Assembly: GCA_016214955.1 (NCBI GenBank)
Contig: JACRMN010000024.1
Coordinates: forward strand, 124,001 to 188,000
Direction: 5' to 3'
Length of the DNA: 64,000 nucleotides
Origin: Deltaproteobacteria bacterium
GTDB lineage: Bacteria; Myxococcota; Myxococcia; Myxococcales; Anaeromyxobacteraceae
In this document: in pieces, positions 49,224 to 63,181 of the stretch
How the letters are laid out: each line of letters opens with the position of its first letter
How positions within the stretch are numbered: position 1 is the stretch's first letter
Notes under the pieces: generated by a model
What the model saw: only the letters and a program-made list of their open reading frames with translations
What the model was told of the DNA's origin: nothing
The model's database searches: none
Program-made: the position numbers and the translations under genes

Positions 49224-49579
49224 GGCGTCAGTCTACCCCGGGTCCGCCCAGGAAGGTGGCGACTGGACGCTGGTGACGAGGCCATGCTGGCGCGGTCGGG
49301 GGCGGCGCCGAGGTCGCGGTCGAGGTCGGGGTCGAGGTCGGGGTCGAGGTCGGGGTCGAGGTCGGGGTCGAGGTCGGGGCCGAGGTCGAGGGTCGGGGTC
49401 GGGGGTCGGGGGTCGGGGTCGAGATCGCGGTTGCCTCCTCCGCACCGACTCCGCATCGATTCCACGCGTGAGTGTTTCCGTCCCGTCCCGCTGCCATTTC
49501 CGCACAGAGGCGTGATGCACCTGTGCCCGTTTGCCAGATGGCAACACGCCGCCCGTGGGGCGTACCTTGGTTGCCGGGT
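49224..49579. other. 356-bp gene-free region with GGTCGG-type tandem repeat
   Basis: No gene is supportable. It contains the tandem repeat 49310-49430, then about 150 bp up to the kinase gene without other visible structure. Arg/Gly-rich open frames here are artefacts of the repeat. Confidence 0.6.
49310..49430. repeat. 12-bp tandem repeat GAGGTCGGGGTC
   Basis: Six full units at 49310-49381 (the middle four identical), then degenerate GGTCGGGG-type copies to about 49430. It is too short and lacks unique spacers for a CRISPR. Similar hexamers occur in two coding regions of this window. Confidence 0.9.
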
Positions 49580-51571
49580 ATGTCGATTTCGGAAGGATCC
49601 ACCGAAGAGTCGCGGACGCCGCCATCGCTGGCGCGCGCCGGCGAGGATCAGGTCACCGCCTTCGCCGATCTCTTCCCCCTCATCTTCGCCAACGCCAACG
49701 AGGGAATCCTCCTCGCCACCACCGACGGCTCCATCTTCGCCGCCAACCCCGAGGCCTGCCGCATCCTCGGCCGCACCGAGGCCCAGGTGTGCGAGGCGGG
49801 CCGCACCGGGATCTTCGACGCCGGCCCCGCCCTCTCACGCGCCCTCGCCGAGCGGGAGCGCACCGGCCGCCTGCGGGCCGACCTGACGGCCATCCGGCCC
49901 GATGGCGCGCGCATCCCGATCGAGGTGAGCTCGGTGCTGCTCGGCGACTCGGGCCCGCCCGGCGCCACGGTCATCTTCTTCCGCGACGTCAGCGAGCGGG
50001 CGACGGCCGAGGAGGCGCTGGAGGCGAAGCGCCAGCTCCTCGATCGCGTCTTCTCCGTGCTCGAGGACGCGGTCTTCGTCATCGACTACCGCAGCGGCCT
50101 CGTCATCCGGGCGAACAGCGCTGCCGAGGAGATGTTCGGCATTCCCATGGACGAGCTGGTGGGGCACGACACCTCCTTCGCCCACGCCGACCCGGAACGG
50201 CACGCCGCCTATCGCCGCCTGGCCGAGGAGGCCTGGGGCAAGGGCGGGGCCTTCGCCGGCGAGACGGTGATGCGCCGGGCCAACGGCCAGTTCTTCCCGG
50301 TGCGCCACTTCTCGCGTCCGGTGCGGGAGGGCGACCTCTCGGTGGTGGTGGAGGTGGTGCGCGACCTCTCGGAGCAGAAGCGGGCCGCCGCCGACCGCGC
50401 CCGGCTCGAGTCGGCCCTGCTCCAGGCGCAGAAGATGGAGAGCCTCTCCGCGCTGGCCGGCGGCCTGGCTCTCGACTTCAACAACCTCATGGGCGTGGTG
50501 CTGGCCAACGCCGGCAACGTGGCGGCGCAGATGGCCGAGGGCTCGCCGGCCCGCCAGGCCCTCGACGACATCGCCGCGGCGGCGCGCCAGGGCTCGGCGC
50601 TGGGCCGCCAGGTGCTGGCCTACGCCGGGCGGGCCCGGGTGGCCTCGGCGCCCCTCGACCTGGCCCACGTGGTCGACGACGTGCTGCACCTGGTGCGGGC
50701 CTCGGTGCCCAAGAAGGTGGCGGTTGACCTGCGCTGCGCCGAGCGGGCGCCGCTGGTGGGCGATCGCGGGCAGCTGGGACAGGTACTCCTCAACCTCGTC
50801 CAGAACGCCGGCGAGGCCATCGGCGATCGCGAGGGGCGCATCGCCATCTCCACCGGCGTGGAGGTGTGCGAGCCGGGCCATCCGGCCCTGGCCTGGCAGG
50901 AGCCGCCCCTGGAGCCGGGGCCCTACGCCTGGCTGGAGGTTGCCGACGACGGCCCCGGCATGTCGCAGGAGGTGGCCGACAGGGCCTTCGACCCGTTCTT
51001 CAGCACGCGGGCGGTGGGGCGCGGCCTGGGCCTGGCGGCGGTGTCGGGCGTCGTGCGGGGCCACCGCGGCGCGGTGGAGGTGGACACCGCGCCGGGCCGG
51101 GGCTGCCGCATCCGCATCTGGCTGCCGGTGGGCGGGCCCGTGGAGGAGGCGCGGCGCGAGCAGGCGCGGCCGGCGCCGGCCGAGGGAGGCCGCGGGACGG
51201 TGCTGGTGGTGGACGACGAGCCGCTGGTGCGGCGGGTGGCCCGGCGCATCCTCGAGACCGGCGGCTTCCACGTCATCGAGGCCAGCGACGGCCTCGAGGC
51301 CTCGGAGCGGTTCCGCGACGACCCCGGGTCCATCGACCTGGTGCTGCTCGACTTCGACATGCCGCGCATGAACGGCGCCGAGGCGCTCGACGCGCTCCAG
51401 CTCGTCGACCCGGCCGTCCGGGTGCTGCTCTCCACCGGCTTCGGCGACGAGCGCTGGATGCAGCTCTTCCGGGGCAAGAAGCTCTCGGGCGTGATCGAGA
51501 AGCCCTACGCCGCCGCGGCGCTCCTGTCGGCGGTGAAGGGCGCCATGCCCGGCCGGGCGCGCGCCAGCTGA
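49580..51571 (+). CDS. PAS-containing hybrid histidine kinase with missing phospho-accepting His
   Basis: 663 residues: two PAS domains (about 25-145 and 150-265), a HisKA-like dimerisation helix (280-345), HATPase domain (385-530) and a C-terminal receiver (540-650). The ATPase N-box LLNLVQNAGEAI and G-box DDGPGM are intact; the receiver phospho-accepting Asp is Asp591 in LLDFDMPRMNG. In the HisKA motif AGG(IL)AHDFNN the His is Leu298 (AGGLALDFNN; codon CTC at 50471-50473). Start ATG 49580; the upstream open frame lacks a start signal. The protein may signal without autophosphorylation or act as a phosphatase. Confidence 0.9.
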   Translation: MSISEGSTEESRTPPSLARAGEDQVTAFADLFPLIFANANEGILLATTDGSIFAANPEACRILGRTEAQVCEAGRTGIFDAGPALSRALAERERTGRLRADLTAIRPDGARIPIEVSSVLLGDSGPPGATVIFFRDVSERATAEEALEAKRQLLDRVFSVLEDAVFVIDYRSGLVIRANSAAEEMFGIPMDELVGHDTSFAHADPERHAAYRRLAEEAWGKGGAFAGETVMRRANGQFFPVRHFSRPVREGDLSVVVEVVRDLSEQKRAAADRARLESALLQAQKMESLSALAGGLALDFNNLMGVVLANAGNVAAQMAEGSPARQALDDIAAAARQGSALGRQVLAYAGRARVASAPLDLAHVVDDVLHLVRASVPKKVAVDLRCAERAPLVGDRGQLGQVLLNLVQNAGEAIGDREGRIAISTGVEVCEPGHPALAWQEPPLEPGPYAWLEVADDGPGMSQEVADRAFDPFFSTRAVGRGLGLAAVSGVVRGHRGAVEVDTAPGRGCRIRIWLPVGGPVEEARREQARPAPAEGGRGTVLVVDDEPLVRRVARRILETGGFHVIEASDGLEASERFRDDPGSIDLVLLDFDMPRMNGAEALDALQLVDPAVRVLLSTGFGDERWMQLFRGKKLSGVIEKPYAAAALLSAVKGAMPGRARAS

Positions 51572-51572
51572 C

Positions 51573-52745
51573 TCAGCGGCAGCGGGCCGCCGCGTCGGAG
51601 GGATCCCCGAGGGCGTGGCAGCGGGCGCAGGCCCGCTGGTTCCTGCGCAGCAGGCTGCGGCAGCCGGAGGCGAAGCCCGGCGGGTGGGGCCGGGCCCCGC
51701 CGCTCGTGGCCGCGTGGCAGCCGAGGCACTGCTCCTCGCGGTGGCAGGAGACGCAGCTCCCCATGTTGCGTGCCGCCTGGAGCGCGTGGTGGCCGCTCCC
51801 CGGCGTGAGCCAGCCCGGCGGGTGGACGCGGGCCGAGGGGTCCTGGAAGGCCGGGTCGGCGTTGCGCCCCACGCCGGTGCGCTCGTGGCAGGCGATGCAG
51901 AAGCTCTGGCGGCGGTGGCAGGCGTCGCACCGCTCCGCCTGCTGCCGCGCCGGCACCATGTGGGTGGAGAGGAAGTCGCCGGGGTGCACCGCCTGGGGGC
52001 GGACGAGCGCGTCGTGGCACCGGGCGCAGGAGGGCTCGTCGTGGCAGGCGAGGCAGCGGGCCCGCTGGCCGGCGCCGGCGAGGGCGTGGCTGCGCTCCCA
52101 GCGCGGGCCGTGGTCGAGGCCGAAGGGGTTCCCGGGGCCGGGGACGAGCTTGCCCGAGGGGTACCCGGTCTCGAGGCGCGCGCCGCGGGCCCGCAGCGAG
52201 GTGGGGTGGCAGGTGGCGCAGGCCGAGGGGGCGCGGGCACCGTCGTGGCAGCCCAGGCAGGTGGCCATGCGCGGCAGGTCGGCGCGAGTGGCCAGGTCCA
52301 CCCGGGAGAGGTCGCCGTGGCAGTCGGCGCAGCCGGCGCCGCGGGCCAGGTGGCGGGCGTGGGAGAAGTGCAGGTTGGGGGGCGGGAAGCGCGAGGCGCG
52401 AGGCGCCCGCTGCACCGTCCAGTCGAACCCGGGGTGGCAGTCCTGGCAGGCGGAGGGGGGCGACACGGGCATGCCGGCCCGGGCCTCCTCGATGGCGTGG
52501 CAGGGGGCGCAGCGTGCCTCCGCGGGGAGGTTGCGGTCGCTGGCCGACTCGCTGCGGGCGACGGCGTCGTGGCAGGCGTCGCAACCGATCTGCCGCCGCA
52601 GGTGGGCGCCGTGGTTCACCCGCAGCGCGATCTGCTGCTCCGGGTAGACGGCGGGCGAGCGCGCCTCGCCCGCGGTCTCGGCCGGCGCGCGCCCCTGGGC
52701 GAGGGCCAGGGCGGGGAGGAGCAGCGCGGCGGCGGCGATCCTCAT
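51573..52745 (-). CDS. Periplasmic 13-haem c-type cytochrome
   Basis: 390 residues with a signal peptide (1-17) and 13 CxxCH haem motifs spaced along the whole chain, for example CDACH, CAPCH, CQDCH, CADCH, CLGCH and CATCH. Additional His residues could be distal ligands (for example HFSHARH). Such proteins carry electrons through the periplasm. The next gene upstream on the same strand encodes a beta-barrel and overlaps it by 4 bp (ATGA), suggesting a two-protein conduit. Not a recognised MtrA or OmcA in length or haem number. Confidence 0.93.
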   Translation of the reverse strand: MRIAAAALLLPALALAQGRAPAETAGEARSPAVYPEQQIALRVNHGAHLRRQIGCDACHDAVARSESASDRNLPAEARCAPCHAIEEARAGMPVSPPSACQDCHPGFDWTVQRAPRASRFPPPNLHFSHARHLARGAGCADCHGDLSRVDLATRADLPRMATCLGCHDGARAPSACATCHPTSLRARGARLETGYPSGKLVPGPGNPFGLDHGPRWERSHALAGAGQRARCLACHDEPSCARCHDALVRPQAVHPGDFLSTHMVPARQQAERCDACHRRQSFCIACHERTGVGRNADPAFQDPSARVHPPGWLTPGSGHHALQAARNMGSCVSCHREEQCLGCHAATSGGARPHPPGFASGCRSLLRRNQRACARCHALGDPSDAAARCR

Positions 52746-54241
52746 CGGGCCATCCTCGTGTCCCAGTCGGCGCCCAGCGCGGCCAGCGCGAAGAGCCGCA
52801 CGTCGTTGCGCGCCCAGCGCGGCGCCGAGTCCTCGAGGAGCAGCGAGATGCGGGCGCTGCGCTCCAGCCGCCCGGAGAGGAGCAGCGCCAGCGCCGGGAA
52901 GGTGCCGCCGTTCTTGGGTGCCACCCGGTCCTCGATGCGGGCCAGCGTGGCCCGGCACTCCACCGTGATCCAGCCGCGGAGAGCGCGGCGCGCCACCGCC
53001 GAGAGCCAGGCCTGCGAGCCGTCGGGGCCGGCGCGCACCGTCAGGTCGGCGAGGAGCTCGCCCGGGGTCCCGGCGAGCGCGCCACCCAGCGCCCCCGAGG
53101 GCTCCCAGCCGGCCTGGCGCGGCAGGTCGGCGGCGGAGAAGGCGGGCGCGGCGAGGTGGCGGATCCCGGCGGCGGCCCAGAGCCGGCCCGGCCCGCCGGG
53201 CGGCGCCCAGTCGGCGCGCAGGCGCACCTCGCGGCTCGGCGCGGTGGTGAAGAGGCTCCAGATGGAGTCGGCGGAGAAGGAGGGATGAACGTGCAGACCC
53301 TCGAGCGCCAGGTCGAGATCGCGGTGGGCCGCCCAGGTGAGCCCGGCGCGGAGCGCGGTGAGGCGGCGCAGGTACAGGTCCCACTCGGCGGCGGCGTCGG
53401 CGCCGAGCCGCCCGCCGCGCCAGCGAGCGCCGGCGGAGAGCTTCTCCTCCAGCACCGACCCGGCCCGCTGCGTGCGCCGCCAGGCCAGCTCGGCGCCGCC
53501 GGCCTGGCCCCCCGGGAGGCGGGTCGTCGCCACCCGCGCGCCGAAGGCTGGCGCCTGGTCGTCGAGCGTCTCGTCGGCGCAGAGGCGCGAGGGGGCCGCC
53601 GGGCAGGGGTAGAGCGGCAGGCCGGCGGCGATGCGGCGCCTGTCGGAGTCGCGGGTACCGTCGGGCGCCAGCGTGGGCGAGGCCATCCAGGAGGCGCCGG
53701 TGACCTGGAGCCCGCCGAAGCCGGTGAGCGCCAGCCAGGGGAGCGGGCGGAACGTCGCCTGGCCGCCGTCGAGCCGCCAGGCGCCGAGGGCGTCGGCCAT
53801 GGTCAGGCGGCCGCCGGCCAGGTCGAGCCGCCCGCCCAGCAGCCCGTTCCAGTGGAGCCGGCCGCCGAGGAGCTGGAGCCTGTCGCGGGCCGCGCCGTCG
53901 AGGGCACCGAGCTCGCGATCGGCGAGCGCGAAGTCGGCGTCGAAGCGCAGCTGGAGCGAGAGGCCGGCGTCCTCTCCCGGCACCACCTCGAAGCCGGCCA
54001 GATCGAGCGTCTGCACCAGCCGGCGGCGCGTCAGGCTCCGCCCCGAGTCGGGGTTGCGGGCGGCGACCGTGTCGGCCAGCGCCTCGCTGCGGGCCTCCAC
54101 GTCGTAGGCGGCGGCCGCCGCCGGCTCGGCGCGCCAGAGGAGCAGGACGAGGAGCGCCAGGCCGTGCGCGCGCCGAGCCTGCGCCCGGCGGGTCGCTGCC
54201 GGCCCGCCCCCTCCCCGCTCCCGCGCTCCGTCGCCATCCAC
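52742..54241 (-). CDS. Outer-membrane beta-barrel protein coupled to the 13-haem cytochrome
   Basis: 499 residues from GTG 54241 (ATG 54259 is possible). A long basic n-region and hydrophobic segment (about residues 34-48) lead to a signal cleavage site near AAAA/YDVEARSEAL. The mature part is rich in alternating strands with Gly/Leu/Arg patterns (GRLHWNGLLGGRLDLAGGRL, LAWRRTQRAG, SREVRLRADW), like an outer-membrane barrel. Its stop overlaps the cytochrome start. No MtrB motif is recognised; the porin-cytochrome role is inferred from the pairing. Confidence 0.75.
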   Translation of the reverse strand: MDGDGARERGGGGPAATRRAQARRAHGLALLVLLLWRAEPAAAAAYDVEARSEALADTVAARNPDSGRSLTRRRLVQTLDLAGFEVVPGEDAGLSLQLRFDADFALADRELGALDGAARDRLQLLGGRLHWNGLLGGRLDLAGGRLTMADALGAWRLDGGQATFRPLPWLALTGFGGLQVTGASWMASPTLAPDGTRDSDRRRIAAGLPLYPCPAAPSRLCADETLDDQAPAFGARVATTRLPGGQAGGAELAWRRTQRAGSVLEEKLSAGARWRGGRLGADAAAEWDLYLRRLTALRAGLTWAAHRDLDLALEGLHVHPSFSADSIWSLFTTAPSREVRLRADWAPPGGPGRLWAAAGIRHLAAPAFSAADLPRQAGWEPSGALGGALAGTPGELLADLTVRAGPDGSQAWLSAVARRALRGWITVECRATLARIEDRVAPKNGGTFPALALLLSGRLERSARISLLLEDSAPRWARNDVRLFALAALGADWDTRMAR

Positions 54242-54272
54242 GCCGGGGCAGCCTATCATCGCCGCCCGCGCC

Positions 54273-55247
54273 ATGGACCCGAGCCCCACCGACTCCCCGC
54301 TCCCCGAGGGCCCTGCGGCGCCCGCGCCATCGCCGCCGGCGCCGCCCCGGGCCGGCGCCAGCCTCTTCTTCCTCGTGGTGCTGCTGCTGCACGCAGTGGC
54401 CGGCGGCGCGGCCCAGGCCGTGGCCCTCCTGCCCGGCCTCCTCTGGAGCCAGCTCTTCGCCTTCTTGCTCCCCGGCTTCGCCGCCGCCGCCGGCGCCAAC
54501 CTCGACCCGCGCCGCTTCCTGCTGCTCCGGCGCCCCCCGGTCCCGGCGCAGCTCTGGCTGGGCGCCCTGGCCGGCCTCGCCGCCTTCGCCACCGCCGCGC
54601 CCCTGGCCGGGCTCTGGTCGCTCCTGCTCCCCGACGCCTGGCTCCGCAGCTTCGACCTCGCACCCCTCTTCCAGGGCGGCCTGGCCGAGCGGGCGGCGCT
54701 GGTGGTGCTCACCTCGCTCGCGGCCCCCGTCTGCGAGGAGGTGGCCTTCCGCGGCTACCTGCTCTCGGCGCTGCGGCTCCGGCTGCGCGACGGCGCGGCG
54801 CTGTGGGTCGGAACGCTGCTCTTCGCCGCCATGCACCTCGACCCGGTCCGGCTCCCGGCGCTGCTGGTGCAGGGGGCGGTCTTCGCCTGGCTGGCGCTGC
54901 GCTCCGGCTCGCTCTGGCCGGCGGTGGCCGCGCACGCCGCCAACAACCTGGCCGCGTCGCTGCTGGCGGCCGCCGACCTGGAGGCGGGCCCCGCCTCGCG
55001 CCCGGAGCCGCTGCCGGCGCTGGCCCTGCTCCTCTTCGGCTGCGCCGCGCTGGCCGCGGTGGCCGCCGCCTGGCGCCGCGCCACCCCGGCTCCACCGCCG
55101 GCCGAGGAGCGGCTGGCTCCGCTCGACCCGGCGCGCCCCTACCTGCGCTTCTCCCTCGACCACCTGCCGCCGCGCTACCTCGGGGCGGTGGCCCTGGGCT
55201 TCGCCGCCCTGGCGGCGCTCGCCGGCTGGGGCACGCTGCGGCGGTGA
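54273..55247 (+). CDS. CPBP-family intramembrane metalloprotease (CAAX protease)
   Basis: 324 residues. The family motifs are EExxxR in CEEVAFRGYLL (near residue 154), the His in FAAMHLDP and the HAANNL motif. A Pro-rich N-terminus precedes about seven membrane helices. Members cleave prenylated proteins or act in bacteriocin immunity; the substrate is unknown. Divergent from the barrel gene, 31 bp apart. Confidence 0.9.
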   Translation: MDPSPTDSPLPEGPAAPAPSPPAPPRAGASLFFLVVLLLHAVAGGAAQAVALLPGLLWSQLFAFLLPGFAAAAGANLDPRRFLLLRRPPVPAQLWLGALAGLAAFATAAPLAGLWSLLLPDAWLRSFDLAPLFQGGLAERAALVVLTSLAAPVCEEVAFRGYLLSALRLRLRDGAALWVGTLLFAAMHLDPVRLPALLVQGAVFAWLALRSGSLWPAVAAHAANNLAASLLAAADLEAGPASRPEPLPALALLLFGCAALAAVAAAWRRATPAPPPAEERLAPLDPARPYLRFSLDHLPPRYLGAVALGFAALAALAGWGTLRR

Positions 55248-61258: not shown

Positions 61259-63181
61259 ATGTCCAAGACGATCCTCCTCATCGAGAACGACGCGGCCTTC
61301 GCGTCGACCCTCGCCCGAGCGCTCGAGGCCCGCGGCCTCGCGGTCCGGGTGACGGGGGACGGCAAGGAGGGGCTGGACCTGGCCCGCGACAGCCGGCCCG
61401 ACGCGGTGGTGCTGTGCGTCGAGCTTCCCAGGATGTCGGGCTACTCGGTGTGCCAGAAGCTCCGCAAGGACGACGAACTGAAGGGCATCCCGCTGGTGCT
61501 CACCAGCGCCGAGGCCACCGAGGAGACCTTCGAGGCCCACCGCAAGCTCAAGGCCCGCGCCGACGACTACCTCATCAAGCCCTTCACCGCGGCGGCGCTG
61601 CTCGAGAAGCTCTCGCTGCTGGTGGCCCTGCCGCCCGCCCCCGGCGAGGGCGAGGAGCTCGTGACCCTCGACGACGTCGAGGAGCTCTCCGGCGAGATCC
61701 CGCTCATCCCCGAGGGCGAGGTGGTCCGGCCGCAGGATGCCCTGCCGGAGCCGGACGAGGACCTGAAGCTCCTCGACGACGCCTTCGACAGCATCGCCGG
61801 CGAGCCGGCCCTGGTGCGGGAGGCCACGCCGCCGCTCGGCCGCCCGCTGGCCGACGAGGCCCCCATCTCCCACGGCGAGCTGCAGGGCGCGGCCGGCCTC
61901 CTGCCCGCCGACGACGAGGTGGCCCCCAGCGTCGAGATCGACAGGCTGGGCGAGGAGGCCGACAGGGCCCTCGACGCGCTGGGCGCCGAGGAGCCGCCGC
62001 CGCTGGAGCCGGAGCCGCAGCACGCCGCCGAGCTGCTCGACGAGCCCGCGCCGATCCTGGACGAGCCGCCGCCCGCGCCCGCCCCCCTGCTGACCACGCC
62101 GGCGCCGGCGCCCATGCCGCTGCACACCTCGCCCGCGCCCTTCGCGGCCCCCAACTACGCGGCGATGGCCGCCGCGGCCCCGCTGCGCGCCACCCCGGTC
62201 CCGGGCTTCGCGCCCGAGGTCACCGCGGGGGCGGGCGCGGCTGCAGCGCTGACGGCGGCGCTGACCGAGAAGGACGCCGAGATCCAGCGGCTGCAGGACC
62301 GGGTGTCGGAGCTGCTCATCGAGGTGGCCCGCGCCAAGGACCACCTCGACCGGCGCGACGCCGAGACGGCCCAGCTGCGCGCGGCAACCCAGGACCTGGA
62401 GGCGCGCGCCCGCGGCCTCGAGTCCGACCTCGCCGCCCGCGAGGCCGAGCTGCAGCGCCAGGCCGACGAGGCGCGGCAGGGGCTGGAGCGGGAGCTGGCG
62501 GCGGCGCGGGAGGAGTCCCGTCGCGAGGCCGAGGCCCGGGCCGAGGCCGAGCAGCGGGCGCACCAGGGCGAGGAGGCGCTGCGCCAGCACCAGCAGCAGG
62601 CGCAGGACGCCGCCCGCCAGGCGGAGGAGGCGCTGCGCCAGGCCGAGACCCAGCGCGCCCAGGACCAGCAGGCCAGGGACGAGGCCGAGGAGCAGGCCCG
62701 CCGCATCGGTGAGCGGGCCGGGCACCTCGAGGCGGAGGTGGCGTCGCTGCGGCTCAAGGTGGAGGAGACCGAGCAGACAGCCAGCCTCAAGGCGGCCCAG
62801 CTCGCCGACGCCCTGGCCCAGCGCGATGCCCTGGGCCAGAAGGCCGGCAGCCTGGAGACCGAGCTGCAGGCGGCACTGGCGCTCCGCGGCCAGGTCGACA
62901 CCATGCGCGCCGACCTCGACGCGGCCCAGGTGGCCCACGAGGGAACCCGCGCCGAGGCGGACCGGCGCTCCGCCGAGCTGCAGAAGCGCATCTCGGAGCT
63001 GGAGGCGGTCAACGCCAAGCACGAGGAGCGGGTCGTCAAGGCCTACCAGAAGATCAAGAGCGACGAGAAGATCCGCGAGAAGACCCGCAAGGCCCTGGCC
63101 ATCGCGCTGCAGCTCCTCGACGAGCGCATCGCCGGCACCGCGCCCAAGGACCCCTCGGAGCCCGCCCCGCGACGGGAGTAG
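61259..63181 (+). CDS. frzS: FrzS-like gliding-motility protein with pseudo-receiver and coiled coil
   Basis: 640 residues. Residues 1-125 are a receiver fold closely similar to Myxococcus FrzS (HRKLKARADDYLIKPF). The phospho-accepting Asp position is Cys53 (VVLCVELP), so it is a pseudo-receiver. Residues 130-330 are acidic and Pro-rich; about 330-620 is a long coiled coil (heptads of Ala, Glu, Arg, Gln). FrzS localises to cell poles and promotes type IV pilus-driven movement. Longer than the M. xanthus protein because of the linker. Confidence 0.82.
   Translation: MSKTILLIENDAAFASTLARALEARGLAVRVTGDGKEGLDLARDSRPDAVVLCVELPRMSGYSVCQKLRKDDELKGIPLVLTSAEATEETFEAHRKLKARADDYLIKPFTAAALLEKLSLLVALPPAPGEGEELVTLDDVEELSGEIPLIPEGEVVRPQDALPEPDEDLKLLDDAFDSIAGEPALVREATPPLGRPLADEAPISHGELQGAAGLLPADDEVAPSVEIDRLGEEADRALDALGAEEPPPLEPEPQHAAELLDEPAPILDEPPPAPAPLLTTPAPAPMPLHTSPAPFAAPNYAAMAAAAPLRATPVPGFAPEVTAGAGAAAALTAALTEKDAEIQRLQDRVSELLIEVARAKDHLDRRDAETAQLRAATQDLEARARGLESDLAAREAELQRQADEARQGLERELAAAREESRREAEARAEAEQRAHQGEEALRQHQQQAQDAARQAEEALRQAETQRAQDQQARDEAEEQARRIGERAGHLEAEVASLRLKVEETEQTASLKAAQLADALAQRDALGQKAGSLETELQAALALRGQVDTMRADLDAAQVAHEGTRAEADRRSAELQKRISELEAVNAKHEERVVKAYQKIKSDEKIREKTRKALAIALQLLDERIAGTAPKDPSEPAPRRE

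Follow-up and report, generated by a model that had tools for sequence, protein, structure and literature searches.

A hybrid histidine kinase gene with leucine at the phospho-acceptor position in a single Anaeromyxobacteraceae genome

Introduction

What becomes of a hybrid histidine kinase whose phospho-accepting histidine has been replaced by a residue that cannot take its place? The question is raised by a gene at positions 49580–51571 of the forward strand of the window, the whole 64,000-nucleotide stretch of an Anaeromyxobacteraceae genome that was analysed here. By its sequence the product is a pseudo-histidine kinase, of a known kind exemplified by DivL and seen here in a single genome. 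Pseudo-histidine kinases are known, and few have been characterised. As this one lies a single base from a standard hybrid kinase, it would allow a clean test of the usefulness of such a protein without autophosphorylation, as a phosphatase, a sink or a partner. If the allele is dead or the base is an error, the case would have little import beyond annotation, where the label of an active histidine kinase would be unwarranted.

Gene and domain organization

The open reading frame extends over 49472–51571 on the forward strand, and the ATG at 49580 is its most likely start, giving a product of 663 residues with the layout PAS-PAS-DHp-HATPase_c-REC, based on the open frame, its translation and Pfam. 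GC content by codon position (0.77/0.51/0.94) was of the coding type, as in a normal gene. Pfam identified two PAS_9 domains, HATPase_c at residues 394–517 (PF02518, E=4.8e-17) and Response_reg at residues 541–653 (PF00072, E=4.1e-20). The PAS domains, also visible as an alternation of sheets and helices in an AlphaFold2 model, cover approximately residues 28–140 and 147–266 (49661–50377); no transmembrane segment was evident, and this part is predicted to be a cytoplasmic sensor in a soluble protein. The DHp helical hairpin at residues 264–316 and 323–348 (50369–50623) was delimited from two long helices in the model and from alignment with the DHp domain of CckA (5idj). It is followed by the HATPase_c (CA) domain (50642–51130) and the receiver domain (51200–51538), both assigned from Pfam and a check of individual residues, and all of these features lie on the forward strand.

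In the AlphaFold2 model (mean pLDDT 74.7), two PAS folds, a CA domain and a receiver are formed, and the DHp hairpin is unbroken. By sequence, the best solved relative was the DHp-CA part of CckA (5idj, E=4e-31). By fold, NifL and FixL-type kinases, which share the PAS-PAS-DHp-CA arrangement, ranked first against the model with low whole-length TM-scores, the top match being NifL bound to NifA, itself at a low TM-score.

Lost and retained catalytic residues

The motif AGGLALDFNN is encoded at 50456–50485 in the frame of the kinase. Codon 298 (50471–50473) is CTC, specifying leucine at the phospho-acceptor position, which is occupied by histidine in all homologues according to translation, alignment and a motif census. 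The middle base of the codon is T at 50472, and the change from histidine to leucine is a one-base difference, as CAC would give histidine. The initial annotation had the residue, the codon and the numbering right; the span that it gave for the feature, 50464–50484, includes the residue and has approximate edges, beginning one base before a codon boundary, so that it reads PGSRLQQ from its own first base. The DHp domain therefore has leucine where a hybrid histidine kinase has its phospho-accepting histidine. No substitute histidine was found in residues 266–350, which take in both DHp helices, and thus there is no displaced acceptor.

The remaining catalytic residues were all present, in agreement with the earlier description of the ATPase and receiver (Asp591) motifs as intact. 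Asp299 (50474–50476), the acidic neighbour of the phospho-acceptor position, and Asn302 (50483–50485), the +4 residue that serves phosphatase activity in HisKA proteins, are retained, their roles being taken from E372 and N375 of CrdS (PMC3510030). In the HATPase_c domain the ATP-site residues N405, N409, D456, G458, G460, G482 and G484 of the N, G1 and G2 boxes are kept, and in the C-terminal receiver the acidic pocket (D545, D546), the phospho-accepting D591 and K641. With the histidine lost and these residues kept, the prior suggestion that the protein is kinase-dead appears sound. The protein would accordingly owe the name of hybrid kinase to its descent and layout and not to its activity.

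Among 50 columns at least 90 % conserved in 51 homologues, the kinase departed at five (G290S, H298L, T475S, K477R and S503T); the departures other than H298L seem mostly mild but leave room for drift. Close to Leu298, S290 is unusual and L296 stands where aligned relatives mostly have I or V. With position 298 ignored, the identity of the DHp domain to 49 relatives was at the level that the CA and receiver domains predict for it (z = -0.10, rank 25 of 50). Relaxed constraint on the DHp domain, indicated by a lower identity to 11 clade members, vanished when 50 sequences were used and overall divergence was corrected for. Beyond residue 298, nothing in the gene suggests a pseudogene, a state as compatible with a functional protein as with a very recent change or with a base error.

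Distribution of the substitution

For the census, 145 genomes of the order were scanned for GGxA-X-DFNN as an exact motif, with the CBN codon class also sought in 195 genomes of the phylum; its counts refer to kinases with that exact motif and provide no rate for histidine kinases in general. Histidine (CAY) occupied X at 405 sites in the order (summed from the table), 18 of these in the host genome. A CBN codon occurred at one site in the 145 genomes, the Leu298 gene, which remained the unique case among the 195 genomes of the phylum. Glutamine (CAR) was found at zero sites in the order, and a codon starting with A, G or T at one site. This site, an apparent tryptophan variant (G113, L062), was discarded as a match by chance, its 85-aa frame not being that of a kinase.

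All homologues with an alignment across the motif, whether from the same genome, the family, the order or other phyla, have histidine. Histidine in orthologues, named as a refutation in the initial annotation, leaves the observation standing but takes away such support as conservation might have lent to its interpretation. A conserved His-less subfamily was rejected, with no second case in the 145 order genomes, the 195 phylum genomes or the homologue sets. The protein is a pseudo-histidine kinase in the sense of a kept kinase fold with a replaced phospho-acceptor, and not in the sense of a replacement conserved among orthologues. On this distribution, Leu298 is a single lineage-specific loss, a singleton and not a family-wide pseudokinase. 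As there is no conserved His-less orthologue group, there is no argument from conservation for a selected function.

Two other kinds of variant were seen among the relatives. Two Holophagaceae hybrid kinases of the same tree group (L040, L042) keep the histidine and read AHHFNN, a second histidine replacing the acidic residue after it. As this acidic residue is needed for kinase activity in CrdS, they are possibly a conserved kinase-altered subgroup. In two proteins from Myxococcota and Deltaproteobacteria metagenome-assembled genomes (L053, L059) the His-DFNN motif is kept and the ATPase N/D/G-box residues corresponding to N405, N409, D456 and G460 are replaced, with DFNNLMGVVIGE conserved between the two. 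These resemble DHp proteins that would take up phosphate but not generate it, a lesion opposite to that of Leu298.

Relatives and genomic context

A tree of 50 sequences placed the kinase, on a long branch of its own (1.27 changes per column), in a fully supported group that joins hybrid kinases of its own order and family with a few from other phyla. The best relatives outside the host genome were 36–44 % identical, and no close orthologue was found, the top identity being about 44 %. Plasmid relatives were all below 60 % identity (about 29–35 % among the best listed) and no source of the gene was identified among them; no exact DNA match was found in viral contigs.

The gene is flanked by coaBC and a multiheme cytochrome gene, and no response regulator, HPt or kinase gene adjoins it as a partner. 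At the matching site of a sister species, where coaBC is 84 % identical, the multiheme cytochrome comes directly after coaBC, with no kinase gene between them; this comparison draws on one readable sister genome, as the other genome of the genus breaks off inside coaBC. The more distant family members that were examined do not have the cytochrome beside coaBC. Insertion in the present species was rejected as a conclusion, since the sister lacks the kinase but its cytochrome has also lost the ancestral 13th heme motif, which is present in two more distant orthologues. Because this motif is also gone, a deletion in the sister may have removed the kinase as well, and such a deletion is at least as likely as an insertion in the host species.

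The cytochrome frame (51576–52745, reverse strand) has thirteen CxxCH motifs and a signal-peptide-like start, and adjoins a likely outer-membrane barrel frame with no Pfam match (52742–54712); the two are a probable porin-cytochrome pair. Between coaBC and the kinase gene, a 12-base GC-rich tandem repeat, GGTCGAGGTCGG, occurs in 11 copies (49294–49431). A perfect palindrome, TTGCCAGATGGCAA, lies 35 bases before the kinase ATG (49531–49544); in the form TTGCCANNTGGCAA this was the single site in the host genome, and a regulon defined by the palindrome was therefore rejected. Elsewhere in the window, a gene at 61259–63181 (forward strand), adjoining a zf-HC2 protein, encodes a receiver domain and a long C-terminal region in which Pfam finds no domain. 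It also lies near murJ in most family members, with gene order kept across the family, and its product may be akin to FrzS-type proteins.

Predicted role and alternative explanations

The reading that we prefer, tentatively and with rather less than even confidence, is that of a soluble PAS-PAS hybrid kinase in which the phospho-accepting histidine is the sole loss and which is kinase-dead, maybe still acting as a phosphatase or phosphoryl acceptor. We infer that the protein cannot autophosphorylate or move phosphate from its own DHp domain to its own receiver. Folding, dimerization and ATP binding are probably preserved. If the protein has a role, its Asp591 would receive phosphate from a different kinase of the cell or from an HPt protein, for which the host genome has candidates in its many hybrid kinases, 18 His-bearing kinases of the same motif and six HPt matches. 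In Myxococcus, EspA charges the receiver of EspC, so the receiver of a hybrid kinase can be charged by another hybrid kinase (PMC4320627), and the authors who described the His-less Caulobacter hybrid CCNA_03265 proposed an HPt protein, heterodimerization or a displaced histidine (PMC11481889). The DHp domain with N302 would offer a phosphatase or docking surface controlled by the PAS domains. In that case the protein would not be a source of signal; it would take up phosphate as a sink, act as a decoy or modulate a partner hybrid kinase.

The residues present would permit a role as phosphatase, scaffold or receiver only, the first because N302, on which the phosphatase activity of HisKA kinases depends, is retained. 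In the Myxococcus HisKA kinase CrdS, H371A abolished kinase activity and reduced phosphatase activity only modestly, with E372 needed for the former activity and N375 for the latter (PMC3510030). Mapping H371, E372 and N375 to L298, D299 and N302 predicts, with real doubt, a kinase-minus protein that may be phosphatase-plus. Phosphatase activity is not to be taken for granted, because PleC-H610A lost both activities, as cited in PMC3510030, and DivL is without kinase and phosphatase activity (PMC4211667). It is rather unlikely that the gene encodes a working, natural kinase-minus/phosphatase-plus hybrid kinase or a receiver-only sink, a single base having made a phosphorelay modulator from an ordinary sensor kinase; if true, the protein would parallel in nature the engineered CrdS-H371A.

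A recently inactivated allele or an assembly base error is nearly as likely as a kinase-dead functional hybrid kinase. There is no sign of selection for the His-less form, because the loss is not common to any orthologue, and the absence of the kinase from the matching sister-species site and the lack of an adjoining partner gene also count against a functional reading. The foremost alternative, itself somewhat unlikely, is that a sensor kinase which is dispensable and sparsely distributed has recently undergone a loss-of-function substitution and is drifting without a present role. The singleton status of Leu298 in the census is consistent with this, as is the empty sister site, where a deletion also cost the adjacent cytochrome its final heme motif, and about 115 kinase/receiver matches to the protein in the host genome make redundancy likely. 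A full-length open frame of normal coding composition, the retention of all other catalytic residues and a DHp domain without excess divergence argue against it. An inactivated kinase is not always inert, as shown by a corynebacterial ChrS pseudokinase allele from laboratory evolution that gave a gain of function through the paralogue HrrS (PMC9491836).

It is improbable that the T at 50472 is an assembly error or a minor strain variant and that the real cell has CAC and an ordinary kinase. One base would restore agreement with homologues that all have histidine, and the remainder of the kinase looks normal; however, the gene has no frameshift or stop hinting at a poor consensus, and since S290 and L296 are also unusual, the motif is not merely the standard one with a single wrong base. 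Single-base transversion errors are uncommon in draft assemblies, which also counts against an error.

Quite improbable is an allosteric sensor of the DivL type, without kinase or phosphatase activity, whose DHp domain would bind a phosphorylated receiver and control another kinase. NifL acts by binding, and NifL bound to NifA is the best structural match of the model, but this match reflects a common PAS-PAS-DHp-CA layout at a low TM-score. With DivL (PMC4211667) the Leu298 protein shares the PAS-DHp-CA order and a non-phosphorylatable residue at the same position, and in both the H, N, G1, F and G2 boxes are intact apart from this residue. Against this, the DivL tyrosine is conserved across its orthologue group and Leu298 is not, and DivL as described has no fused receiver (PMC4211667), whereas the receiver here is intact. 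An active kinase using another acceptor residue would suit the intact ATP site but is very improbable in a DHp domain devoid of histidine, leucine not being phosphorylatable.

Comparison with known systems

The closest parallels to the kinase-dead hybrid kinase that we prefer each differ from it in some respect. Caulobacter CCNA_03265 (PMC11481889) is likewise a hybrid kinase without the conserved histidine that retains the receiver aspartate, but it has a candidate replacement histidine (H151) on the same helix, whereas the Leu298 protein has none, and it has a phenotype in motility and adhesion screens. DivL (PMC4211667) shares the PAS, DHp and CA domains and a replaced phospho-acceptor with the other boxes kept. 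Its tyrosine (alanine in one species) is conserved across an orthologue group, in contrast to a lone leucine in one species, and it has known binding partners and is not fused to a receiver, unlike the Leu298 protein. CckA-like hybrid kinases (5idj) have the same PAS-DHp-CA-receiver layout, but CckA is a bifunctional kinase that has the histidine (AGGVAHDFNN in 5idj). Identity with CckA was rejected: the curated CckA models each have a cut-off of 1000 bits, and the Leu298 protein, at 231.6 and 207.8 bits, stayed far below it. CrdS-H371A (PMC3510030) lacks histidine at the same HisKA position and keeps the acidic residue and the +4 asparagine, as does the Leu298 protein; the former is an engineered alanine mutant with a known partner, whereas the latter has a natural leucine in a hybrid kinase.
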